A DNA stretch of 35,234 nt, taken from NCBI GenBank assembly GCA_017557405.1, contig JAFYYV010000022.1, positions 1 through 35,234 of the forward strand, in the 5' to 3' direction. Source of the DNA: Prevotella sp. (GTDB taxonomy: Bacteria; Bacteroidota; Bacteroidia; Bacteroidales; Bacteroidaceae). Each line of letters starts with the position of its first letter. Position 1 is the stretch's first letter. Positions 360 through 13,106 of the stretch are shown piece after piece. The translations under genes and the position numbers were made by a program. The notes below the pieces were generated by a model. That model was given only the letters and a program-made list of their open reading frames with translations. It was not told the origin of the DNA and made no database searches.

Positions 360-545
360 TATCTTTGTAGCAGAAATCGTTTGCTATCAATTCAACCATA
401 ATAATACAGAATATCAATGGAAAATGCAATAGTCATTAGTTTTTTTCAAAACCTCTGCCATAGTTTGGCGTAGCTTTGCCATACTTTTGCAGAAAAAACG
501 AACATTACGACATTCAACATGAATCCTAAACAACAATGCGTATGA
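360..545 (+). promoter_or_regulatory. Promoter and leader of the WYL regulator gene
   Basis: A perfect Bacteroidota -7 box TATCTTTG lies at 360-367. A second cluster of boxes of the form TAnnTTTG or near it occurs as an 11-bp direct repeat at 457-489 (units start at 457, 468 and 479). The leader carries two tiny frames: 417-473 (18 codons) and 519-545 (8 codons), the latter ending in a TGA that overlaps the ATG at 542. The repeats just upstream of a regulator gene could be operators for autoregulation; that is inference. Confidence 0.5.
457..489 (-). repeat. Three-unit 11-bp repeat in the WYL leader
   Basis: Read on the minus strand, three consecutive 11-mers are CAAAAGTATGG, CAAAGCTACGC and CAAACTATGGC, with exact 11-bp phase. 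They resemble the CAAAGCTATGC units spaced every 22 bp at 21773-21893 and 35041-35117. On the plus strand the units read as TAnnTTTG-like -7 boxes. Confidence 0.5.
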
Positions 546-1483
546 TAAACAATGACAGAGGACAAAACCTGATCAATAAATATGTATGGGTGATAGAAAC
601 CATACTTCGCGCCAAAAAGATATCCTTCGAAGACCTAAACAAAAAGTGGCTTCGCGATACGGATATCAGTAGGGGTGTGGAAATCCCCAAGCGCACTTTC
701 GACAACTGGCGCTATGCCATTGCCGACATGTTCGGACTGTTCATCGAGAACGAGCAGAAGGGGAAATACCGTTATTACATCATGAACGAGGAGGACATCA
801 GTAAGAACGGCCTGCGCTCGTGGCTCTACAACACGTTTTGCGTGAGCAACGCATTGGCAAACAGCCAAAGCATCAAAGACCGCGTTCTTCTTGAATATGT
901 TCCGTCTGGTCAGGAATATCTGCAAACCATCATCGAGGCGATGAAAGAGAACCGAATGCTCAACATCACTTACCACAGTTATTGGAAAGACGAAGAAAAC
1001 AACTTCGATGTTCAACCATATTGTGTAAAATTATTCCGCCAAAGATGGTATTTGGTCGCCCGCAGCACCTATACCTATTATTATAATAAGGGACCACGCA
1101 TCTACTCACTCGATCGCATTCATAGTCTTCGCACAACGGACGAGACTTTCGAAATGCCCAAAGACTGGAGCGCCAAAGACTTTTTCGAGGGATGCTTCGG
1201 CATCATTGCCGACCTGCGTATTGAGCCCCAAATCGTCAAACTTAAGGTATCAGCAGGGCAGGCTAACTACATCCGAGATTTGAAGATGCATGATTCGCAG
1301 GATGAGATTGAACGAAACGAGGAATATAGCATTTTCAAATACCGTTTGCGTCCATCATACGATTTCATTCAAGAGATCCTGTGGAACGGTGAGACTATGG
1401 AAGTGCTGGAGCCTATATCATTGCGTAAAGAGATTGCAGGAATCATCAGTAGAATGAACGAAAAATATAGGGAGGACAAATAG
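542..1483 (+). CDS. WYL-domain transcriptional regulator
   Basis: This is a predicted DNA-binding regulator of the HTH-WYL-WCX type. Residues 1-85 look like an N-terminal winged-helix region. The WYL domain lies at about 135-205, with a beta-rich core holding RQRWYLVARS and a later RIYSLDRI strand; a WCX-like C-terminal region follows. WYL proteins sense ligands, often nucleic acid or nucleotides, and repress or activate neighbouring genes; BrxR/CapW-type members control defence systems. An in-frame ATG at 536 would add two residues. I prefer 542 because its ATG overlaps the TGA of a short upstream frame, which suggests translational coupling. The stop codon lies one base before the next gene, so the two genes are co-transcribed. 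It is the only obvious regulator of the island. Confidence 0.85.
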   Translation: MINNDRGQNLINKYVWVIETILRAKKISFEDLNKKWLRDTDISRGVEIPKRTFDNWRYAIADMFGLFIENEQKGKYRYYIMNEEDISKNGLRSWLYNTFCVSNALANSQSIKDRVLLEYVPSGQEYLQTIIEAMKENRMLNITYHSYWKDEENNFDVQPYCVKLFRQRWYLVARSTYTYYYNKGPRIYSLDRIHSLRTTDETFEMPKDWSAKDFFEGCFGIIADLRIEPQIVKLKVSAGQANYIRDLKMHDSQDEIERNEEYSIFKYRLRPSYDFIQEILWNGETMEVLEPISLRKEIAGIISRMNEKYREDK

Positions 1484-1484
1484 T

Positions 1485-1976
1485 ATGCGAGATTTTGCTG
1501 CAATAGATTTTGAGACGGCTAACAATGAACGTTCTTCGGTTTGTTCCGTTGGAGTTGTCATTGTCCGTGGCGGTGAGATTGTTGATTCGTTCTACTCACT
1601 CATTCAACCCGAGCCTAACTATTATAATTATTGGTGCAGTCAGGTTCATGGTCTATGCTATGAAGACACTGACGAAGCTCCAATATTTCCAAAGGTTTGG
1701 GCGCAGGTTGAACCCTTGATAGAAGGCCTTCCCCTTGTTGCCCACAACAAACCTTTTGATGAAGGCTGCCTGAAGGCTGTGTTCCAAGTCTATCAAATGG
1801 ACTACCCTGACTATGAGTTTTACGACACTCTGTGTAAATCACGGCGTGTGCTTCCTGAATTAGAGAACCATCAACTACACACTGTTGCTGCCGCCTGCGG
1901 TTATCAACTGAAGAACCATCACCATGCACTCGCCGATGCAGAGGCTTGTGCCTGGATTGCAAGGGAAATCCTATAG
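1485..1976 (+). CDS. DnaQ-like DEDDh 3'-5' exonuclease
   Basis: This 163-aa protein is a single exonuclease domain of the DNA polymerase III epsilon / RNase T type, which removes nucleotides from 3' ends using two metal ions. The DEDDh residues are visible: D8 and E10 in AAIDFETAN, D92 in AHNKPFDEGC, and H146 with D151 in HHALADAEA. There is no C-terminal polymerase-binding tail, so it need not be the replicative proofreader. It starts one base after the stop of the WYL gene, so the two form one unit. With the replication-like genes further downstream, a fourth class of replisome part is represented in the island. Substrate and role are unknown. Confidence 0.88.
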   Translation: MRDFAAIDFETANNERSSVCSVGVVIVRGGEIVDSFYSLIQPEPNYYNYWCSQVHGLCYEDTDEAPIFPKVWAQVEPLIEGLPLVAHNKPFDEGCLKAVFQVYQMDYPDYEFYDTLCKSRRVLPELENHQLHTVAAACGYQLKNHHHALADAEACAWIAREIL

Positions 1977-2080: not shown

Positions 2081-2302
2081 ATGAGTAAAGTCTTTAAAAT
2101 CATCCCAAAGCGTACCAAGCGCACAAATGGACAGGTACTCACACCTGAAATGACCATTACTGTGACTACGCGGTCACACACTACTACCCCGTTCTACAAC
2201 GGAGCAAAAGAAATACAAGAGCAGTACATGCGCATGTTTCAGTTTGATTACAAGAAAGCATGCTGCTCAGCAAATGATTTTGATTTTGAAAAATTGGGCT
2301 AA
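2081..2302 (+). CDS. Small hypothetical protein (73 aa) leading the nuclease operon
   Basis: I do not recognise this family. The protein has a basic N-terminus (KIIPKRTKRTNG), a central Thr-rich strand-like stretch (EMTITVTTRSHTTTPF) and an acidic, helical C-terminus. It has no membrane segment or signal peptide. A good -7 box lies directly upstream and the PD-(D/E)XK nuclease gene follows after 15 bp, so it is probably expressed with it. The size and basic start would suit a DNA-binding or nuclease-partner protein, but nothing in the sequence proves this. Confidence 0.65.
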   Translation: MSKVFKIIPKRTKRTNGQVLTPEMTITVTTRSHTTTPFYNGAKEIQEQYMRMFQFDYKKACCSANDFDFEKLG

Positions 2303-2317
2303 AAATATAATAACAAT

Positions 2318-3646
2318 ATGGAAAACCCATTGGAACGATTATTGGAAAATCTTCAATTAATTGATGATTTTGCGAAACGATATGATCTGCTCAAACAAAA
2401 ACTCCCTTATCATATAAATGTAATAGATGAGTTACATGTAAACGAAAATGCTAATAGTCGCATTCTGGCATCACTTCTGCTTTACAATAGTGAAGGAAAG
2501 TACCCCTTACTAGAGAGTTTTATTAATTTTTGCATTAAAGATTGGAATATCGAAGTCTCTCACCCGTATGTTACTTCTGAAGAAATGAGAATAGATCTCC
2601 TCGTTAGAGAGAAGGGCAAATATGCAATCATTTTTGAGAATAAGATATATGAGGCAATTTTACAGAAGAATCAAATTGCCCGTTATATCCAAAAACTACG
2701 TCAAGAAGGTTTTAAAGATGAACAAATATACGTTGTTTTTCTTCCTCCATCTGAGTATGAACCAGATATTTGTAGTTGGCAAGAACCGAAAGAATGTTGT
2801 GAGACATGTAATCGCAACGAATGTCTGATTAATAAGACGCCCAAACTTAGAGAATCATTTATTGATCGATTTAAGATTGTCACATTCAGAGAGGATATTT
2901 TATTGTGGCTTAAGAAGGAAGTTATTCCCAATTGCAAACAAAAAGAGGTTTATTTGTACACTGCAGCAATGCAATATCTCGATTATCTTGAAGGTTATTT
3001 TGATTTACGAACAATGAATATGAAAATGAATATGGAATTGAAAGACTATTTGTATGAGAAATTAAAGTTGAATGAATTATCAACTGAAGAAAAAATGAAG
3101 GTGCTCGAAGGGAAAGCGGAAGAAATAAACCGTCTTCTTAACCAAATAAACGTTATTAAAGAGTCTATTCAAAAAGAATTTGCGATTCAAGATGTGAAAA
3201 ATTGGGAACCTTATAGAGACAAAATTAGAGATATTTTGTCTTCAATAGGAGATAGTTTTCAACTAAAAACAGAATGTGACTTTTTTGATCCTAGTAATAG
3301 CTCTCATCTTTTCATTAAACTAGATAAAGAAGATTGGCAACTATCTATTATAATAGAAAAATATGGTTTCCCTGATCATTCTGGAGACGAATCCTTTATT
3401 TATATTGGTATACCCCAAGAAAAGAAAGTCGATAGTAAATATTGGGTAGATCGAGATAATAAAATAATCTTTAATCAAAAAAGTTACAAAGAAGGGCATC
3501 CTTATGGATGGGAATGGATAGATCGATATAATCGAAAGCCCGATGTATTTCAATATGAAATTGATAATGGCCAATTCCAATCATATTTATTCAATAAAGT
3601 CGAAAACATTTTAAAACTAATAGAACAGAAACAATTGTCAATGTAA
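2318..3646 (+). CDS. PD-(D/E)XK nuclease superfamily protein
   Basis: This 442-aa protein has the core of a PD-(D/E)XK nuclease in its N-terminal half. E43 lies in NENANSRILASLL, a usual first motif of this family, D93 in MRIDLLVRE, and E107-N-K109 in IIFENKI; NQIARY at 118-123 follows. Such enzymes cut DNA with Mg2+. Five cysteines at about 152-169 (one CC and a CxxC-like group) could bind zinc. The C-terminal half (about 245-442) has a coiled-coil-like stretch followed by a region I do not recognise, perhaps for target or partner recognition. The gene is strongly AT-rich compared with the flanks, a sign of transfer. It lies between a 73-aa protein and a PLD-like nuclease with gaps of 10-15 bp, so the three are likely one operon. 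Confidence 0.8.
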   Translation: MENPLERLLENLQLIDDFAKRYDLLKQKLPYHINVIDELHVNENANSRILASLLLYNSEGKYPLLESFINFCIKDWNIEVSHPYVTSEEMRIDLLVREKGKYAIIFENKIYEAILQKNQIARYIQKLRQEGFKDEQIYVVFLPPSEYEPDICSWQEPKECCETCNRNECLINKTPKLRESFIDRFKIVTFREDILLWLKKEVIPNCKQKEVYLYTAAMQYLDYLEGYFDLRTMNMKMNMELKDYLYEKLKLNELSTEEKMKVLEGKAEEINRLLNQINVIKESIQKEFAIQDVKNWEPYRDKIRDILSSIGDSFQLKTECDFFDPSNSSHLFIKLDKEDWQLSIIIEKYGFPDHSGDESFIYIGIPQEKKVDSKYWVDRDNKIIFNQKSYKEGHPYGWEWIDRYNRKPDVFQYEIDNGQFQSYLFNKVENILKLIEQKQLSM

Positions 3647-3655
3647 TTACAGACC

Positions 3656-4168
3656 ATGCTCACCTTCATCTCTAACTCTGACCACTACAAAGAGGTGCTT
3701 TCACGGGTGCAATCCGTGAAGCATACGCTTTGGATTGGTACCGCTGACATCAAAGATCTTTATGTTGAGGTGGGCAAAGAGAAAAAGCCTTTTCTTGCTC
3801 TTATCGCCCAACTCATTCGGCGTGGCGTGGAGGTACGGTTGATTCATGCAAAGGAACCTGGGCCTAACTTCCGAGAGGATTTTGACAAGTACCCGGTTCT
3901 GTATGACCGCTTGGAGCGAGTGCTCTGTCCACGTGTTCACTTTAAGATGCTTGTCTTTGACTGCAAAGAGGCGTATATTGGCAGTGCAAATCTAACAGGT
4001 GCTGGCATCGGCATGAAAGCAGAGAGCACACGCAACTTCGAGGCTGGCATCTTGACTGATGATCCTGAAATCGTGGAACAGGCTATGAATCAGTTTGATG
4101 AAGTTTGGATAGGCAAGCATTGTAAATCCTGCAAACGTAGAGACTTCTGCCCAGACCCCATCGCATAA
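3656..4168 (+). CDS. Single-HKD phospholipase D-like nuclease
   Basis: This 170-aa protein carries one complete HKD motif: H95, K97 and D102 in VHFKMLVFD, followed by GSANLT (110 region) and NFEAGI (about 127-132), as in Nuc/BfiI-type PLD nucleases that work as dimers. It would cleave phosphodiester bonds without metal. A CxxC group with a third Cys near the C-terminus (C156, C159, C165) may bind metal. It follows the PD-(D/E)XK gene by 9 bp and is the last gene before a strong terminator. Two unrelated nucleases in one operon fit a defence or restriction role; that is inference from context. The start is the first ATG after the upstream stop. Confidence 0.82.
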   Translation: MLTFISNSDHYKEVLSRVQSVKHTLWIGTADIKDLYVEVGKEKKPFLALIAQLIRRGVEVRLIHAKEPGPNFREDFDKYPVLYDRLERVLCPRVHFKMLVFDCKEAYIGSANLTGAGIGMKAESTRNFEAGILTDDPEIVEQAMNQFDEVWIGKHCKSCKRRDFCPDPIA

Positions 4169-4194: not shown

Positions 4195-4232
4195 GACCTC
4201 TGCCACGAGTTGGCGGAGGTCTTTGTTTTCTT
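4195..4232 (+). terminator. Rho-independent terminator after the nuclease operon
   Basis: An 11-bp stem (4195-4205 with 4211-4221, one G-T pair) encloses a 5-nt loop and is followed by a T-rich tract. It separates the nuclease operon from the replication-like operon. The T tract includes a TTTCTTTG that might serve as a weak -7 box for the next gene. Confidence 0.8.
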
Positions 4233-4278: not shown

Positions 4279-4647
4279 ATGGAAGTAAACGTTGTAACTA
4301 AAAATGGGGTGTCTGCACTTTCGGTTAAAGCAGACTTTTACGAGGTGTTAGATGAGAACTTTACTGCGATATGTGAAGCCATCTCCAACAGAGGAAAGGC
4401 TATCAAAGAACTAACGAGTGTCTTTGAGAAAGAAGACAACAGCCTTGATACTATTATTCAAATAATGACTACGTCAATAGGTGAAAATGCAGCAAAAAAT
4501 GCTCTTTCCGAGAAACTGGGAATAAGCCCGCAAACCGCTCAATATCTTTTGGTTATGTCGCTGGAGGACCTCACCACCTTAAACGTCAAGAAACTGAAAA
4601 AGATGCTTGATGATTATCGAACAAACATTAGTAAATTGGTTGTTTAA
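4279..4647 (+). CDS. Stand-alone protein resembling the GyrA/ParC coiled-coil exit-gate region
   Basis: This is a 122-aa helical protein. From about residue 56 to 120 it lines up without gaps with the part of type IIA topoisomerase A subunits around the C-gate: the IRxS-AxxAxxxL segment, then EKLGIS-QTAQYLLVMSLEDLT (compare EQFSLT-KQAQAILDMRLQRLT in gyrase A), then KLKKMLDDYRTNISKL for the returning helix. It has no winged helix, catalytic Tyr or tower, so it cannot cut DNA. In gyrase this region forms the dimer interface through which DNA leaves. The N-terminal 50 residues are not recognised. It is first of four genes, each resembling a replication component. The match is from memory of the family; function, perhaps binding to gyrase or topoisomerase IV or mimicry of them, is inferred. 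An out-of-frame ATG at 4272 was ignored. Confidence 0.7.
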   Translation: MEVNVVTKNGVSALSVKADFYEVLDENFTAICEAISNRGKAIKELTSVFEKEDNSLDTIIQIMTTSIGENAAKNALSEKLGISPQTAQYLLVMSLEDLTTLNVKKLKKMLDDYRTNISKLVV

Positions 4648-4701
4648 TACCCTCCCAAGCATTTTTGTACCCTTTCTATATTACTTCGGAATAATGTGGT
4701 T

Positions 4702-5259
4702 ATGGATAAAATGGATTCATATGAGAAGTTAAACAAACCAGGGTTATGGTTTGTAAAAACCAGACAGCCTTGCACAGAACTATGCAGGTGTGTGTATGAA
4801 TTAGCAGTAGAGTTAGGTTTGCCTGTTGTGGTCTATTCTTCAGCTTCAAAAAGGGAGATACAAAACAACGTCATTGAAATGGTCAAAAAGAAATGCATTG
4901 ATATGGCTTCAGACGAACTGGAGCGTAATTGGCTGGAACAGGAAATGACGGAATATAACACTCATGGTCAGTTCTGGTATCCAGAGGAGATGAATGATTA
5001 CGTGCCAAATGGTTCTTTCTGGACAAACTATGTTTTCATTGATGAATTTGAGATACTGTCATTTACTAATAGCTTTTCTAATTTGTACCTAATAGATAAC
5101 TTGTCTGAGCTGTGGTATGACGAAATAAATGACGATAATTTGTCAAGGCTTCCTTTGATAGAAAAAGAGGCTATTGAATATAAAAAGACTATAGTGGTGT
5201 TTCTCGCATCACCTAATACAGAAATGCTAAGCGAGTTTGTAGAAAATCATTTATTCTAA
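4702..5259 (+). CDS. Degenerate DnaB-like RecA-fold protein lacking Walker A
   Basis: The 185-aa product follows the order of the DnaB C-terminal ATPase domain but has lost the ATP-binding loop. GLWFVKTRQPCTEL stands where DnaB has a GRPxMGKTAL-type loop. PVVVYSSASKREIQNNVI matches the strand and helix after it (FFSLEMSKE-L). NYVFIDEFEIL fits Walker B, and KTIVVFLASPN fits the sensor strand ending in SQLN. An insert rich in Trp, Tyr and Glu separates them. Loss of the GKT means it should not hydrolyse ATP. A GTG at 4696 would add two residues; the ATG is more likely. It precedes an intact mini-DnaB by 12 bp, suggesting an inactive/active pair. The DnaB link is a pattern judgement and should be tested by structure prediction. 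Confidence 0.65.
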   Translation: MDKMDSYEKLNKPGLWFVKTRQPCTELCRCVYELAVELGLPVVVYSSASKREIQNNVIEMVKKKCIDMASDELERNWLEQEMTEYNTHGQFWYPEEMNDYVPNGSFWTNYVFIDEFEILSFTNSFSNLYLIDNLSELWYDEINDDNLSRLPLIEKEAIEYKKTIVVFLASPNTEMLSEFVENHLF

Positions 5260-5271
5260 ATTATAACAACT

Positions 5272-5928
5272 ATGGATTGTTCAGATTACACAAGATTAGA
5301 TTATAAAACCATCAACGAGTTTTTCCCAAAAGGACAAGTAAGTATTTTGGCAGCAAGACCTGCAATGGGTAAAACGATGTTTGCTTCTCAAATTGCAAAC
5401 CAGTTTTGCCGTCATGGAGAGAATACCCTGTTTTTCTCTTTAGAATTCGACTACAAAGATATTATTAACCATTTTGATCCTGTCGGGAATGGAAATGTCA
5501 AATGTTGTATTGTCGATATACCTGGCATAACAATAGAGGATATTCAACTTGCCATAAAAAAGCGCTATTTCAATGTAATCATTATTGATTATGTTGGATT
5601 AATGAATTCAATTAGAGTCATCGAAGGATTAGAACGACATGATGAACTTAGGGAAATCTGGATGTCATTGGATAAAATTGCGAAAGAGAATGATATAAGG
5701 ATAATTGGTGTGTCACAATTACCCGGCATTCGTATAGATGGTAGCGAAAATGCATTGCCAGATGACTGCATGAGTTACTTAGATAGAAAATTCTTGACGA
5801 AGAGAATAAAGGTACTTCATAGGGAAAGTTACTACTCTGGTAAATCGGACAAAGAGGATTTGGAGCCTTTTTCAATTATTGAATACGTTTATGACTCAAG
5901 TTATACAACAACACTTAGATACATATGA
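5272..5928 (+). CDS. Mini-DnaB: isolated replicative-helicase RecA domain
   Basis: The 218-aa protein is the C-terminal ATPase domain of DnaB without the N-terminal domain or linker. It shows Walker A RPAMGKT (29-35), FFSLEF (54-59, position of the catalytic Glu region), Walker B IIIDYVGLM (103-111) and the sensor GVSQL (146-150). Near the C-terminus, VLHRESYYSG corresponds to the FLYRDEYYN strand of DnaB. The segment after it lacks the conserved KxRNGPTG with the Arg/Lys that reaches the neighbouring subunit. It may bind ATP but is unlikely to be a processive helicase. Known DnaB is about 450 aa. Its TGA overlaps the ATG of the next gene (ATGA), so the two are translationally coupled. It may join host DnaB rings or imitate them; that is inference. 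Confidence 0.82.
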   Translation: MDCSDYTRLDYKTINEFFPKGQVSILAARPAMGKTMFASQIANQFCRHGENTLFFSLEFDYKDIINHFDPVGNGNVKCCIVDIPGITIEDIQLAIKKRYFNVIIIDYVGLMNSIRVIEGLERHDELREIWMSLDKIAKENDIRIIGVSQLPGIRIDGSENALPDDCMSYLDRKFLTKRIKVLHRESYYSGKSDKEDLEPFSIIEYVYDSSYTTTLRYI

Positions 5929-7088
5929 CTTACAAAGAGGAAGTGGAATTAACAAATCCTGAAGGATTCAGCAATGATGCTGGTTATTTGGAACATCTGA
6001 CGTTTCATAAAGCGAAACTCATCTATGGATACCCAATTCCTGAGGATGTTGATGACCGTCTCCAATTTGAACTGGAGATTATTGAGAAATCCGGCAACTC
6101 AAAGTATCTGCTCTTCCTTTATAATCTTGTCAACACGGCCCAAAAAGAACTTGGCGCATTAATAGGTCCTGGTCGAGGCTCCATAGGTGGAAGTCTTGTC
6201 GCATATTGCTTAGGTATTACAAAGGTTGACCCGTTAAAACATGATTTGCTATTTGAGCGGTGTATAAATCCTGATATACTTTCACATCTTGAAGTATGGA
6301 TTGATGTGGATAAAGAAGGGCTGTCTGCAATCCTTGACTGGCTGAAGGAGAAGCATGTCAAGATGATAGATAAGGATACTATTATATTTGAGGATGAGTC
6401 AGATAAAGAGAAATGGCAGTTTGTGACTAAACTTGTAGCCAAAAATGCACTATCCGAAATCAAAACTGTTTTGTCAAACATCAAACAGACGCAGGGGATA
6501 GATGTAAATCTTGATGACATTCCTATTGATGATCCTCAAACCTTTGCACTTTTCCAGAAGGGCGACACGGACGATGTATTTTGCTTTGATTATTATGGTA
6601 TGCAAGAATGGTTGAAGTACCTGCATCCCACAACATTCAACGACTTAGTGATTCTGAATGCAATGTTCTGTCCAGTCATGTTAGATTATATCCCTCAAAT
6701 GCTTCAACGAAGGAGTGGAAAGGAAAAAATAGAACATCCTATTCCTGCGATGGAGAAATACCTTCAGGAGACATACGGCATATTGGTTTATCAGGAACAG
6801 TTGATATTGCTATCTAGATTAATTGCAGATTTTACAAGGGACGAAAGTGACATGCTCTTCCATGCAATTAATCAAAAACAAAAGGATGAATCAACCGTCT
6901 TGAAACATAAATTCATAGAAGGTGGGGAAAGAAATGGGTATGAGAAGGAAACATTAGAACGGATTTGGACTATATGGGAAGAAATAGGCCCTCATAGTCA
7001 TAATAAATCCCATATAGTTTGTCTAACTTTGATAGCATATCAGATGGCCTATCTGAAAGCACATTATCCCAAAGAGTTTATAGTATGA
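5925..7088 (+). CDS. Miniature, probably inactive DNA polymerase III alpha (DnaE)-like protein
   Basis: This 387-aa protein follows DnaE from just after the PHP domain to the end of the fingers. It shows IGPGRGSIGGSLVAYCLGIT (80-99), DPLKHDLLFER (102-112), the catalytic pair D127-V-D129, GIDVNLDDIPIDDPQTF (191-207), GDTDDVF (213-219), ETYGILVYQEQ (282-292), NKSHI (360-364) and AYQMAYLKAHYPKEF at the end. DnaE is about 1,100-1,250 aa. Here the PHP domain, about 110 residues of palm, the helix-hairpin-helix, beta-binding and OB regions are absent. The third catalytic Asp aligns to K169, and Arg in the RPGPM-type motif is gone (FCPVML). DNA synthesis is therefore unlikely. It overlaps the mini-DnaB gene by 4 bp and ends the operon. 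A decoy or dominant-negative role is inferred. Confidence 0.85.
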   Translation: MTYKEEVELTNPEGFSNDAGYLEHLTFHKAKLIYGYPIPEDVDDRLQFELEIIEKSGNSKYLLFLYNLVNTAQKELGALIGPGRGSIGGSLVAYCLGITKVDPLKHDLLFERCINPDILSHLEVWIDVDKEGLSAILDWLKEKHVKMIDKDTIIFEDESDKEKWQFVTKLVAKNALSEIKTVLSNIKQTQGIDVNLDDIPIDDPQTFALFQKGDTDDVFCFDYYGMQEWLKYLHPTTFNDLVILNAMFCPVMLDYIPQMLQRRSGKEKIEHPIPAMEKYLQETYGILVYQEQLILLSRLIADFTRDESDMLFHAINQKQKDESTVLKHKFIEGGERNGYEKETLERIWTIWEEIGPHSHNKSHIVCLTLIAYQMAYLKAHYPKEFIV

Positions 7089-10278: not shown

Positions 10279-10896
10279 TCAGAAACGCAGGATGATGTAG
10301 AACGCGCAAACCAATCCCACAAAAAATCCCGCCACCACTTGGGAAAGCGAGTGCTGACGCAGTATCATGCGAGCCGTGCCTACCATTCCCGCCAATATCA
10401 AAACCAGACACAACCACCAGATGGGATTGAACGAAAATATGAGGGAGAAGGCGACGATAGCACCTGTAACGCCACCGATGGCTGCCGAATGGGTGGATAT
10501 CTTCCACCAGACATTGATAATGGCACAGACTATCTGTATCATAAGCGCCGCCACCAATATGCCACCCATGAAATGGGGAATCTTCATTAACCCCATGATA
10601 TAGTAACAAGTGAAATAGCAAACAATGCTGATGATGTAAGGTACCATGCGGCGTTCCTTGATTCCCAACTCTATGAGACTCCACCCTTGGTATTTCCTAT
10701 ACAAATGAATCAAGATGGTAGGCAAGAGAATGGTGAAAAGATACACCATGACGAGCACCTCGATTTTGAATTTCAAGTGATAGGCATTGAGATAACTGAA
10801 AAGGAACAATGCTATCAACCCCACAAAGGGCAGATAGAACGGTGTGAAAATCATACTGATGACACGTGCTGCCAAGATGATGTTTTTTTCTCTCAT
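10279..10896 (-). CDS. PAP2-superfamily-like membrane protein
   Basis: The 205-aa protein has about six hydrophobic segments. The C-terminal half shows a relaxed PAP2 phosphatase pattern: KISTHSAAIGGVTG in place of the SGH motif and ARMILRQHSLSQVVAGFFVG for the SRxxxxxHxxxD motif, with the final Asp replaced by Gln or Val. It could be a lipid or undecaprenyl phosphate phosphatase, or a member that has lost catalysis. It starts 7 bp after the rpoN stop and should be co-transcribed with it. Confidence 0.75.
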   Translation of the reverse strand: MREKNIILAARVISMIFTPFYLPFVGLIALFLFSYLNAYHLKFKIEVLVMVYLFTILLPTILIHLYRKYQGWSLIELGIKERRMVPYIISIVCYFTCYYIMGLMKIPHFMGGILVAALMIQIVCAIINVWWKISTHSAAIGGVTGAIVAFSLIFSFNPIWWLCLVLILAGMVGTARMILRQHSLSQVVAGFFVGLVCAFYIILRF

Positions 10897-10903
10897 TTCT
10901 TTC

Positions 10904-12397
10904 TTATACTTTTCTTAATCGAGCAACGGCAAACCCCATTTGTTCACGATATTTGGCCACTGTGCGGCGAGCAATGGGGAATCCTTTCTCTCTCATCAAA
11001 ACTGTCAAAGCCTCGTCGCTAAGTGGTTTCTGCTTGTCTTCGTTCTCTATGATATCTTTCAATGCCAGTTTTATCTTACGCGTTGACAATTCTTCTCCGC
11101 CCTCGGTCGTGTAACTGTCGCTGAAGAAAAAGCGCAATGGGAACGTTCCCCAGCGTGTTTGGGCGTATTTCACATTCGAGACTCGCGACACCGTGGAGAT
11201 GTCAAGTCCTGTTCGCTCGGCAATGTCTTTTAAAATCATGGGCTTCAAGTCGGCCTCATCGCCGTCTTGAAAGAAGCGATATTGCCAATCGATGATAGCT
11301 TTCATCGTAATATAGAGCGTGTGTCGGCGTTGTTTCACGGCATCAATGAATCCTTGCGCCTTGTCAACCTTCTCTTTGGCATAGAGTAATGCCTCTTTTT
11401 CTTGGCGACTCATGCCATCACGATTGTTTTTGTAAGTGCTCACCATGTCGGCAAACGATGGCGAAATCTTCAATTCGGGGATGTTTCCACGATTCAAATA
11501 GAACGTGACTGTGCCATCATCATTGGTATCGACAATAAAGTCGGGCGTTATTTGCTGCAAATTCCGGCCTTCCGTCTCACCGAGCGATGCTCCTGGCTTG
11601 GGATTTAACCGATGGATTTCTTCCTGTAATGTCTTTACTTGTTCGGAAGTCAAATCAAGTGAGTCTTGTATCTTATGCCAATGCTTCTTGATGAACTCGT
11701 CAAAATGATGAGTGATGATACGTTTCATTTGAGTGCGAATCCAACTGACTGGCTTGCGCTCCACTTGCAACAGAAGGCATTCTTGCAACGAACGTGCACC
11801 GATGCCAGCAGGATCGAACAACTGCAATTGCTTCAACACTTCTTCTATCTCCTTCTCGCTAACATCGATGTAATGTTTGATGGCAAGGTCGTCGGAGATT
11901 TCACCGAGATCTTTTCTCAAATAACCATCATCATCAAGCGAACCTATGAGATATTCCATCACATCACGTTGGGTTTCGTTGAGGTCCAACTCTCCCATTT
12001 GTTCTTTCAACTTATCGTAAAACGAGATGGTATCACCATATACCATTTCCTCGTATTCCGCATTCTGATAGAAATCTTGGGCATAAGATTCGGGCATTTC
12101 ATCATCGCGTCCGATATTTGAAAGCGCATTTTCAAGCGCATCCTCACGTTCTTCGCGTTCGGTTTGCTGTTCAAAAGTCTCGATTTCTCCAATATTCATG
12201 CCATCCCGCTCATCACTCATCGCATCATCAAGCGACATAGTTTCAAGAGCAGGATTGTCATCGAGTTCGACATTAATACTCTCCTCCAATTCAGTCAATG
12301 GCATTTCAAGAAGTCTCACCTGCAACATTTGTTGGGCCGAAAGGCGCTGTTGCAGTTTCTGTTCTTGCTTCTGCGTTTGAATCAGTTCTTGTGCCAT
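10904..12397 (-). CDS. rpoN: RNA polymerase sigma-54 factor
   Basis: RpoN directs RNA polymerase to -24/-12 promoters that need an AAA+ activator. The 497-aa protein has a Gln-rich N-terminal activator region (QELIQTQKQEQKLQQRLSAQQMLQVRLLEMP), an acidic linker (about 45-120), the core-binding domain with PAGIGARSLQECLLLQ, and the HTH segment with LKDIAERTGLDISTVSRVSNVKYAQTRWG. The RpoN box ARRTVAKYRE lies near the C-terminus. It follows a conserved hypothetical gene by 28 bp and precedes the PAP2-like gene by 7 bp, all on the minus strand. No sigma-54 activator gene is in the window. Confidence 0.97.
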   Translation of the reverse strand: MAQELIQTQKQEQKLQQRLSAQQMLQVRLLEMPLTELEESINVELDDNPALETMSLDDAMSDERDGMNIGEIETFEQQTEREEREDALENALSNIGRDDEMPESYAQDFYQNAEYEEMVYGDTISFYDKLKEQMGELDLNETQRDVMEYLIGSLDDDGYLRKDLGEISDDLAIKHYIDVSEKEIEEVLKQLQLFDPAGIGARSLQECLLLQVERKPVSWIRTQMKRIITHHFDEFIKKHWHKIQDSLDLTSEQVKTLQEEIHRLNPKPGASLGETEGRNLQQITPDFIVDTNDDGTVTFYLNRGNIPELKISPSFADMVSTYKNNRDGMSRQEKEALLYAKEKVDKAQGFIDAVKQRRHTLYITMKAIIDWQYRFFQDGDEADLKPMILKDIAERTGLDISTVSRVSNVKYAQTRWGTFPLRFFFSDSYTTEGGEELSTRKIKLALKDIIENEDKQKPLSDEALTVLMREKGFPIARRTVAKYREQMGFAVARLRKV

Positions 12398-12425
12398 ATT
12401 ACGTTATCGGATGAAGAATGAGGAG

Positions 12426-13106
12426 TTAAGGATTGAAATAATCTTTTAATTGGGCTGCAAAGGCTGCCAGTTTCTGTGGGTTCTCGTTGCCGAATCGTTG
12501 CCACACCTGTTGACAAGAGTTGAGCAGAGGACTTGTCATGAAGTCATTTCGATTGAGGTATGGATCACAGAATTGGAAAATTTCCATGATTTCCACAATC
12601 AACCGGATGGGCGATTTAGTCAGTTTGGCGAGTTCTACAACCTCAGGTGTATCTGCCACCATAGTGATGGGCGTGAGTCTGAAGTAAAGGTCGAGAGTCA
12701 GAATGAGTACCACGGGAGTGAGCGAGGTAAGAGAAGTGGGATACTGCTTGCTGCTTGGTGGCAGTTCAATGGGTTTGAAATCCTTTTCCCATGTCTCGTT
12801 CAAATCCACTCCATCGTAGAAGAGTGAAGCATTTCCATAACCATTTTTTTGACGCAGCAACTTCACGCCACGCGCCAGTTTTTTGGGGTTTTGTCCGTAA
12901 GTATCCCAAAGCCGCTGTATGCGTGGGGTATCAATGGAGCGCAGACGGAACATCTGTTGATTGAGAAACTGTGGCGGAATGTGGAGTTCCAGCGCCAAAG
13001 CCACCAACTGTCGGTTATAGATGGGTTTCACGCCTTCAGGCTTCTTGAGATAGAGGTGCATCAACAAGAGCCAATATTCGTCTGACCAAAGTGGATGAGT
13101 TGCCAT
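12426..13106 (-). CDS. Conserved hypothetical protein upstream of rpoN
   Basis: I do not recognise a named family for this 226-aa soluble protein. It is mostly helical and has no signal peptide. Visible segments are HPLWSDEYWLLLMHLYLKKPEGVKPIYNRQ near the N-terminus, LVALALELHIPPQFLNQQMFRLR (helix-turn-helix-like), and a central stretch IRLIVEIMEIFQFCDPYLNR. The reading frame has codon use like its neighbours and sits 11 bp after the histidine phosphatase stop and 28 bp before rpoN. A regulatory or DNA-binding role is possible from the helical segment but not shown. Confidence 0.75.
   Translation of the reverse strand: MATHPLWSDEYWLLLMHLYLKKPEGVKPIYNRQLVALALELHIPPQFLNQQMFRLRSIDTPRIQRLWDTYGQNPKKLARGVKLLRQKNGYGNASLFYDGVDLNETWEKDFKPIELPPSSKQYPTSLTSLTPVVLILTLDLYFRLTPITMVADTPEVVELAKLTKSPIRLIVEIMEIFQFCDPYLNRNDFMTSPLLNSCQQVWQRFGNENPQKLAAFAAQLKDYFNP

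Follow-up and report, generated by a model that had tools for sequence, protein, structure and literature searches.

We analysed four consecutive genes at positions 4279 to 7088 of a 35,234-nucleotide stretch of Prevotella DNA (the window, meaning the whole of that stretch), whose products appear to derive from the replication machinery of the host. The four open reading frames (ORFs) are present as an earlier sequence-only reading had described them. They are given here with their lengths in amino acids (aa) and their profile matches.

4279..4647, + strand: mini-GyrA, an exit-gate (C-gate) fragment of GyrA, 122 aa (PF00521 6e-9, profile positions 328-413 of 432)
4696..5259, + strand: p187, an orphan family, 187 aa, with a possible, weakly indicated RecA/DnaB-like fold without Walker A
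5272..5928, + strand: mini-DnaB, a RecA-domain fragment with Walker A (GKT) kept, 218 aa (PF03796, DnaB_C, 2e-22)
5925..7088, + strand: mini-DnaE, 387 aa, with portions of the NTPase/palm and fingers regions and without the DxD motif (PF17657 1e-40, PF07733 6e-31)

The mini-GyrA matches the exit-gate part of the GyrA profile only, without the catalytic-Tyr domain and without the C-terminal wrapping domain. The mini-DnaB spans positions 205-379 of 506 of the host profile, with internal segments and the N-terminal domain missing, and the mini-DnaE aligns to residues 364-518 and 637-853 of the host DnaE, lacking the PHP domain, the C-terminal clamp-binding region and a portion of the palm. DnaE catalysis depends on three aspartates, the DxD pair plus a third; in the window protein, HLEVWIDVD replaces PDIDxDF and the stretch of the third Asp is missing. 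Concerning the folds proposed earlier for these proteins, structure prediction gave a GyrA C-gate fold for the mini-GyrA, and sequence profiles support those of DnaB and DnaE. The product of the second gene had been read as a DnaB-like fold lacking Walker A; modelling gave a RecA-like structure of low confidence, so that a weak RecA-like assignment stands, and a sequence comparison gave no support for kinship with DnaB. We found no Pfam family for p187 and no significant match in the PDB.

The loss of the DnaE catalytic motif is shared by other loci. DxD was lost in all 10 truncated DnaE rows covering the position, namely the window, six rows of a form called mini-B (L016, L017, L018, L110, L111 and L112), L107 and two mini-C rows (L016 and L018); the pieces of L029 and L090 do not reach this position and stand outside this count. 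The third-position Asp is kept in two of these rows, the L018 mini-B and L107. All six mini-B rows carry the common replacement PKFQFD, which means that conservation in this lineage extends to the inactivated state. PDIDxDF and the third Asp are kept in the five complete tail-less DnaEs of about 815 aa that were aligned, and DxD also in two full-length DnaEs and in a 909-aa plasmid DnaE. In a tree built from the alignment columns common to all rows, without DnaE2 references, the window mini-DnaE lies on a long branch and groups with the tail-less DnaEs, apart from the host-type ones; this split had a support of 100 without mini-B and of only 61 once mini-B was added.

Twelve loci in 11 genomes combine two or more kinds of piece derived from such machines (the window, L061, L016, L017, L018, L107, L110, L111, L112, L138, L029 and L024). 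The count leaves out L060, cut by a contig end, and L136 and L137, short stretches with one piece each. The four genes had been read as one set, and for GyrA and DnaE the pieces are indeed found together: no more than 3 kb separates the mini-GyrA from a DnaE-like gene in 9/9 assessable loci (excluding L060; a tenth locus, in genome G414, ends at the contig edge). The DnaE-like gene lies at 2.9 kb in L016, and in L061 it is an 814-aa form beside an interrupted mini-GyrA. DnaB pieces occur in two of these nine and in L024, relatives of the mini-DnaB being found in L024 (45% identity) and L017. Together with the folds given above, this agrees with the earlier reading for three of the four genes. 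Sigma-factor pieces are present in six of the nine, and L024 holds a DnaA piece (PF00308 3e-48) together with its DnaB piece. A WYL-domain regulator was recognised by profile in nine of the 12 loci, and so was a nuclease-type gene (PDDEXK_4, PLD, REase-ARP or MBL). The genome of the window carries a second such locus (L029, G000:C49 8340-12479) with a 198-aa DnaE-fingers fragment, a WYL gene, a REase-ARP nuclease and a sigma-70 region-2 fragment. For the pieces of DnaA, full-size sigma and DnaE, the best matches that carry a name come from Bacteroidales.

We found also a conserved, unassigned protein of 142-152 aa just upstream of the mini-DnaE in L017 (8531-8989), L107 (5494-5922) and L111 (6619-7077); the 152-aa protein gave no convincing Pfam or PDB match. 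At L018 (6530-7763) an RpoD-type gene follows immediately after the cassette, and its start is overlapped by the mini-GyrA frame. The 290-aa sigma factor there shares 88% identity with an RpoD-type factor of Prevotella and was treated as the host gene. The same locus encodes, beside the fragment cassette (10762-12924), an MBL/RNase J-like protein whose C-terminal part is PD-(D/E)XK-like by eye.

Extra copies of these machine genes lie in the islands. Seven genomes picked as carriers of such loci yielded 14 matches to PF07733: each genome has a single full-length dnaE (1240-1334 aa), and the seven extra matches all lie inside the islands, one of them below the family cut-off; none was extra in G414 and G072. 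The DnaA domain gave eight matches in the same seven genomes, the single extra one being that of L024. Twenty arbitrary 14-kb stretches of 12 genomes, taken non-randomly at round coordinates on long contigs, held no fragments, three housekeeping genes (dnaB, rpoD and dnaE) and one WYL gene.

The nine mini-GyrAs share a mean pairwise identity of 45% (range 29-97%), compared with 77% among 24 host exit gates, so the mini-GyrAs diverge faster. Four further genomes with a mini-GyrA were found (RUI437, RUG606, UBA4336 and RGIG9433), and the HUN156 (G055) record carries a related locus. Eight mini-GyrA records are assigned to Prevotella, Prevotellaceae, Bacteroidaceae or Bacteroidales and are mostly metagenome-assembled, with water-buffalo omasum and yak cecum among the sources. 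In G359:C8 (L061, 1210-1568), the locus most like the window, stops interrupt the mini-GyrA.

Two of the pieces are under purifying selection, as judged from one close pair each by nonsynonymous (dN) and synonymous (dS) rates. The mini-GyrAs of the window and G414 gave a dN of 0.175 and a dS of 0.57 (dN/dS about 0.31), and p187 of the window and G359 a dN of 0.166 and a dS of 0.677 (dN/dS about 0.25). Among the tail-less DnaEs, the corresponding ratio of proportions (pN/pS) was 0.20-0.31. When neutral evolution was simulated to 0.2 substitutions per site (2000 runs), the frame stayed open in no run for DnaE, in 5 for DnaB, in 10 for p187 and in 126 for GyrA; the open-frame argument is therefore weak for GyrA.

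Upstream of the four genes, the following features lie on the same strand.

536..1483, + strand: WYL-domain transcriptional regulator, 315 aa, which opens the island (PF13280 6e-15, PF25583 2e-8)
1485..1976, + strand: DEDDh 3'-5' exonuclease, 163 aa (PF00929 1e-19)
2081..2302, + strand: DUF6140 small protein (PF19637 5e-7)
2318..3646, + strand: PD-(D/E)XK nuclease (PDDEXK_4), candidate effector (PF14281 1e-12; PADLOC candidate PDC-S26 8e-17)
3656..4168, + strand: PLD-family nuclease, DrmC-like, candidate effector (PF13091 3e-14; NCBIfam DrmC 4e-11, far under the NCBIfam cut-off)
4195..4221, + strand: terminator-like stem of 11 pairs that follows the PLD gene and precedes the four-gene operon (6 such sites compared with 4.5 expected)

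The five upstream genes are co-oriented with the operon and separated from it by the stem. The exonuclease of the window is 91% identical to two relatives, and the WYL-linked exonuclease was found in 157 of 299 genomes of the genus (E<=1e-55), where the pair anchors islands in which McrBC, DUF262-like (by eye) and other defence-type genes recur. We inspected 40 such WYL-exonuclease neighbourhoods out of some 150 listed, chosen for the most part by highest score and including the known L063 and L083; several end at contig edges. Seven of them hold a DnaE-related ORF and three p187 or a remnant of it.

Phages commonly target the gyrase, sigma factor, helicase and polymerase of their hosts. The reading that we prefer, at a rough probability of 0.42, is that the four-gene operon would supply the mimics of an anti-phage cassette under WYL control in Prevotella-like gut bacteria, its products baiting or sensing phage takeover proteins. 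In its favour count the recurrence of the set across loci, the confinement of extra copies to the islands in the seven carrier genomes, the missing DxD of the truncated DnaEs, the purifying selection on two of the pieces, the faster divergence of the mini-GyrAs, and the regulators and nuclease-type genes nearby, which are of kinds usual in defence. Shortened and mostly inactive paralogues of host machines (topoisomerase, helicase and polymerase in the window, sigma factor and DnaA in sister loci) would retain the surfaces bound by takeover proteins and could not perform the host job. A phage protein engaging a mimic would simply be soaked up if the mimics act as sponges; if they are guarded, its binding may release a co-encoded nuclease, and the WYL protein would presumably control the cassette. 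More tentatively, the loci may draw on a swappable repertoire of inactive paralogues (GyrA, DnaB, DnaE, DnaA and sigma-70) that detect takeover and unleash the linked nucleases, which would be a new kind of bacterial immunity and a counterpart of the integrated decoys of plant immunity.

Several observations weigh against the preferred reading. The nine co-occurrences are not all independent, as L017 and L111 have near-identical genes (97%) and L110 and L112 are alike. No WYL gene was found in L018, L061 and L107 within the stretch available, L061 being cut by a contig end. For nucleases, the REase-ARP match of L110 is just below the cut-off, L112 has a weak PDDEXK_13 match and L111 has none. 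The G359 locus pairs its interrupted mini-GyrA with a DnaE of 814 aa whose catalytic motif is intact, so the pieces are dispensable and not always disarmed; the mini-DnaB likewise retains Walker A (RPAMGKT), so that some pieces keep nucleotide-binding motifs. The mean identity of 26% between mini-GyrAs and host exit gates is low for the mimic of a specific surface. Most other pairs of pieces are saturated, with a pN/pS of 0.27-0.54 compared with 0.07-0.09 for the exonuclease and 0.06-0.17 for the PLD gene, which means that the pieces are constrained less than their neighbours. Finally, 33 of the 40 WYL-exonuclease neighbourhoods are without a DnaE-related ORF, and the pieces are rare: mini-DnaE-B occurs in 6 of 398 genomes of the genus, the G168 match being flagged with one stop, and small mini-GyrA ORFs, among the best matches listed, likewise in 6 of 398, the G359 copy being the interrupted one; small ORFs of lower score may have escaped that listing.

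Next to bait or sensor comes a dominant-negative shutdown, which we regard as unlikely. Induced fragments would join the gyrase exit gate, the DnaB ring, Pol III and RNA polymerase, and the halt of replication and transcription would abort the infection. The parts retained are indeed interaction or oligomerisation modules (the exit gate, the RecA domain with its Walker A, the DnaA AAA+ domain with a P-loop by eye, and sigma region 2). However, the same 26% identity is low for heterodimers with the host exit gate, region 2.2 of the small sigma fragments is unlike that of the host factor, and no separate antitoxin was recognised, though none was searched for. In favour of the shutdown also counts that a WYL regulator can respond to genotoxic stress, according to PMC10693628.

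Less probable again is a damage-induced accessory polymerase of the mutasome type, with an active tail-less DnaE of about 815 aa, p187 in the part that ImuA plays for DnaE2, namely a dead RecA-like partner, and a reduced form of this in the window. It agrees with the intact PDIDxDF and third Asp of the five complete tail-less DnaEs, with the low-confidence RecA-like model of p187 and with the position of its gene, which adjoins a DnaE-like gene in six of eight distinct loci (the window, L002, two in G032, G359 and G376, where p187 is a 57-aa remnant) and stands without one in G055:C12 and G279. Against it, the mini-B loci and the window have lost DxD, it is hard to see what fragments of GyrA, sigma and DnaA would do in a mutasome, and the five aligned tail-less DnaEs stop near host residues 853-861, ahead of the clamp-binding region. 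The ImuA-ImuB-DnaE2 mutasome (PMC12926913) likewise places a C-family polymerase beside dead paralogues, one of them RecA-like. A mutasome of this type has a DnaE2-type polymerase with an intact active site, whereas the window DnaE and the mini forms have lost DxD and are joined by gyrase, sigma and DnaA pieces. This parallel fits the DnaE of about 815 aa with p187 and not the window.

The pieces might instead bind each other in a pseudo-complex that senses replication or transcription stress and regulates the nucleases without binding any phage protein, which we hold to be improbable. In L110, L111 and L112 a WYL gene comes first, followed by a variable gene, sigma, mini-DnaE and mini-GyrA, with small genes between some; the last three keep this order in L017, and some genes abut or overlap across these four loci. 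WG repeats continue the mini-DnaE ORF in L017 (6929-8518, six repeats by Pfam) and in L110 and L112 (6194-7411, by eye). Both features would suit such an assembly, but the sets vary, with no sigma piece in the window and L107 and no GyrA in L138 and L029, so there is no single obligatory complex.

Least probable, and unlikely as a general account although it does occur in G359, is the decaying replication module of a mobile element, which the sequence-only reading had named as its main alternative: the interrupted mini-GyrA of G359, the truncated DnaE pieces of L070 (124 aa) and L090 (141 aa), the long branch of the window mini-DnaE, the weaker constraint and a p187 relative on one IMG/VR contig leave part of it standing, and it is weakened by the varied regulators and nucleases alongside, by the DnaA pieces and the sigma pieces (which are not replication genes), by the purifying selection in the two close pairs, by nine mini-GyrA frames open down to 29% pairwise identity, by the rarity of open frames in the neutral simulation, an argument that is weak for GyrA, and by mini-GyrA not being found in plasmids or viral contigs.

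Scans with Pfam, NCBIfam, PADLOC and PHROGs named parts of these loci and no such set. With PADLOC, ten genes, mostly of type-B loci, gave nothing convincing, and the machine fragments scanned gave no match apart from a weak mad8 match of the mini-DnaB. The PLD and PDDEXK_4 genes of the window resemble DISARM DrmC and PADLOC candidate PDC-S26, but among the nine window genes scanned only this DrmC-like match was seen and none to the DISARM core DrmA/DrmB. A literature search, in which most subscription journals were not covered, found no described system of this kind. In PARIS, Ronin and Panoptes (PMC12409349), a bait engaged by a viral protein frees or spares a toxic effector, and the logic proposed here is alike; a defence complex, a restriction-like system or nucleotides serve as bait there, whereas the putative baits here are paralogues of host replication and transcription proteins. 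The kind of locus would be new, and its mechanism may turn out to belong with guard or decoy immunity as a variant. If the pieces are baits, the operon would name the host surfaces attacked by phages, and each mimic would be a pull-down reagent for takeover proteins not yet known; if they are poisons, they would be natural dominant-negative inhibitors of validated antibacterial targets. The recurrence of disarmed host-machine fragments beside defence-type genes makes the idea of bacterial protein decoys of their own essential machines directly testable.

The mini-GyrA was also considered as a bait for CcdB, as it matched 1x75_A at E 0.02. We take PDB 1x75 to be the complex of CcdB with GyrA14, an exit-gate fragment that corresponds to the mini-GyrA region of GyrA. 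The Arg of the host DMRL motif has a role in CcdB binding. All nine mini-GyrAs have S or P in that column, and a CcdB bait is disfavoured because of this replacement.

Among mobile elements, the mini-GyrA gave no match in a plasmid collection at E 0.01, and its profile gave none in viral contigs. Scans of the viral contigs with single proteins, which detect close relatives only, found no relatives of the mini-GyrA, mini-DnaB or mini-DnaE. Against phages, the mini-DnaB gave 43 records, with 26-33% identity in the ten listed. A tyrosine-recombinase-like sequence was noticed by eye near L003. The mini-DnaE gave 1204 phage records, the best two at 49% and 47% on unverified fecal scaffolds and most others listed at 30-37%; these two may be host DNA, as the first of them (L010) holds a 1236-aa DnaE. 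The mini-DnaE-B profile matched two loci in the viral contigs, with 33% and 26% identity.

Other DnaE-related genes lie in comparable surroundings. The tail-less DnaE clade of about 815 aa (L002, L061, L063, L065, L079 and L139) sits in islands with McrBC, DUF262-like, PLD or AAA genes. On a plasmid of Prevotella sp. E2-28 (L006, 5888-8617), the genes ahead of the short 909-aa DnaE encode an AAA ATPase, a protein in which a VWA-like motif was seen by eye, and an annotated M48 metallopeptidase. Two WYL-exonuclease islands hold single DnaE pieces, PHP-only in L070 (8179-8553) and of the NTPase region in L090 (9841-10266), each of which may be a remnant or a further piece.

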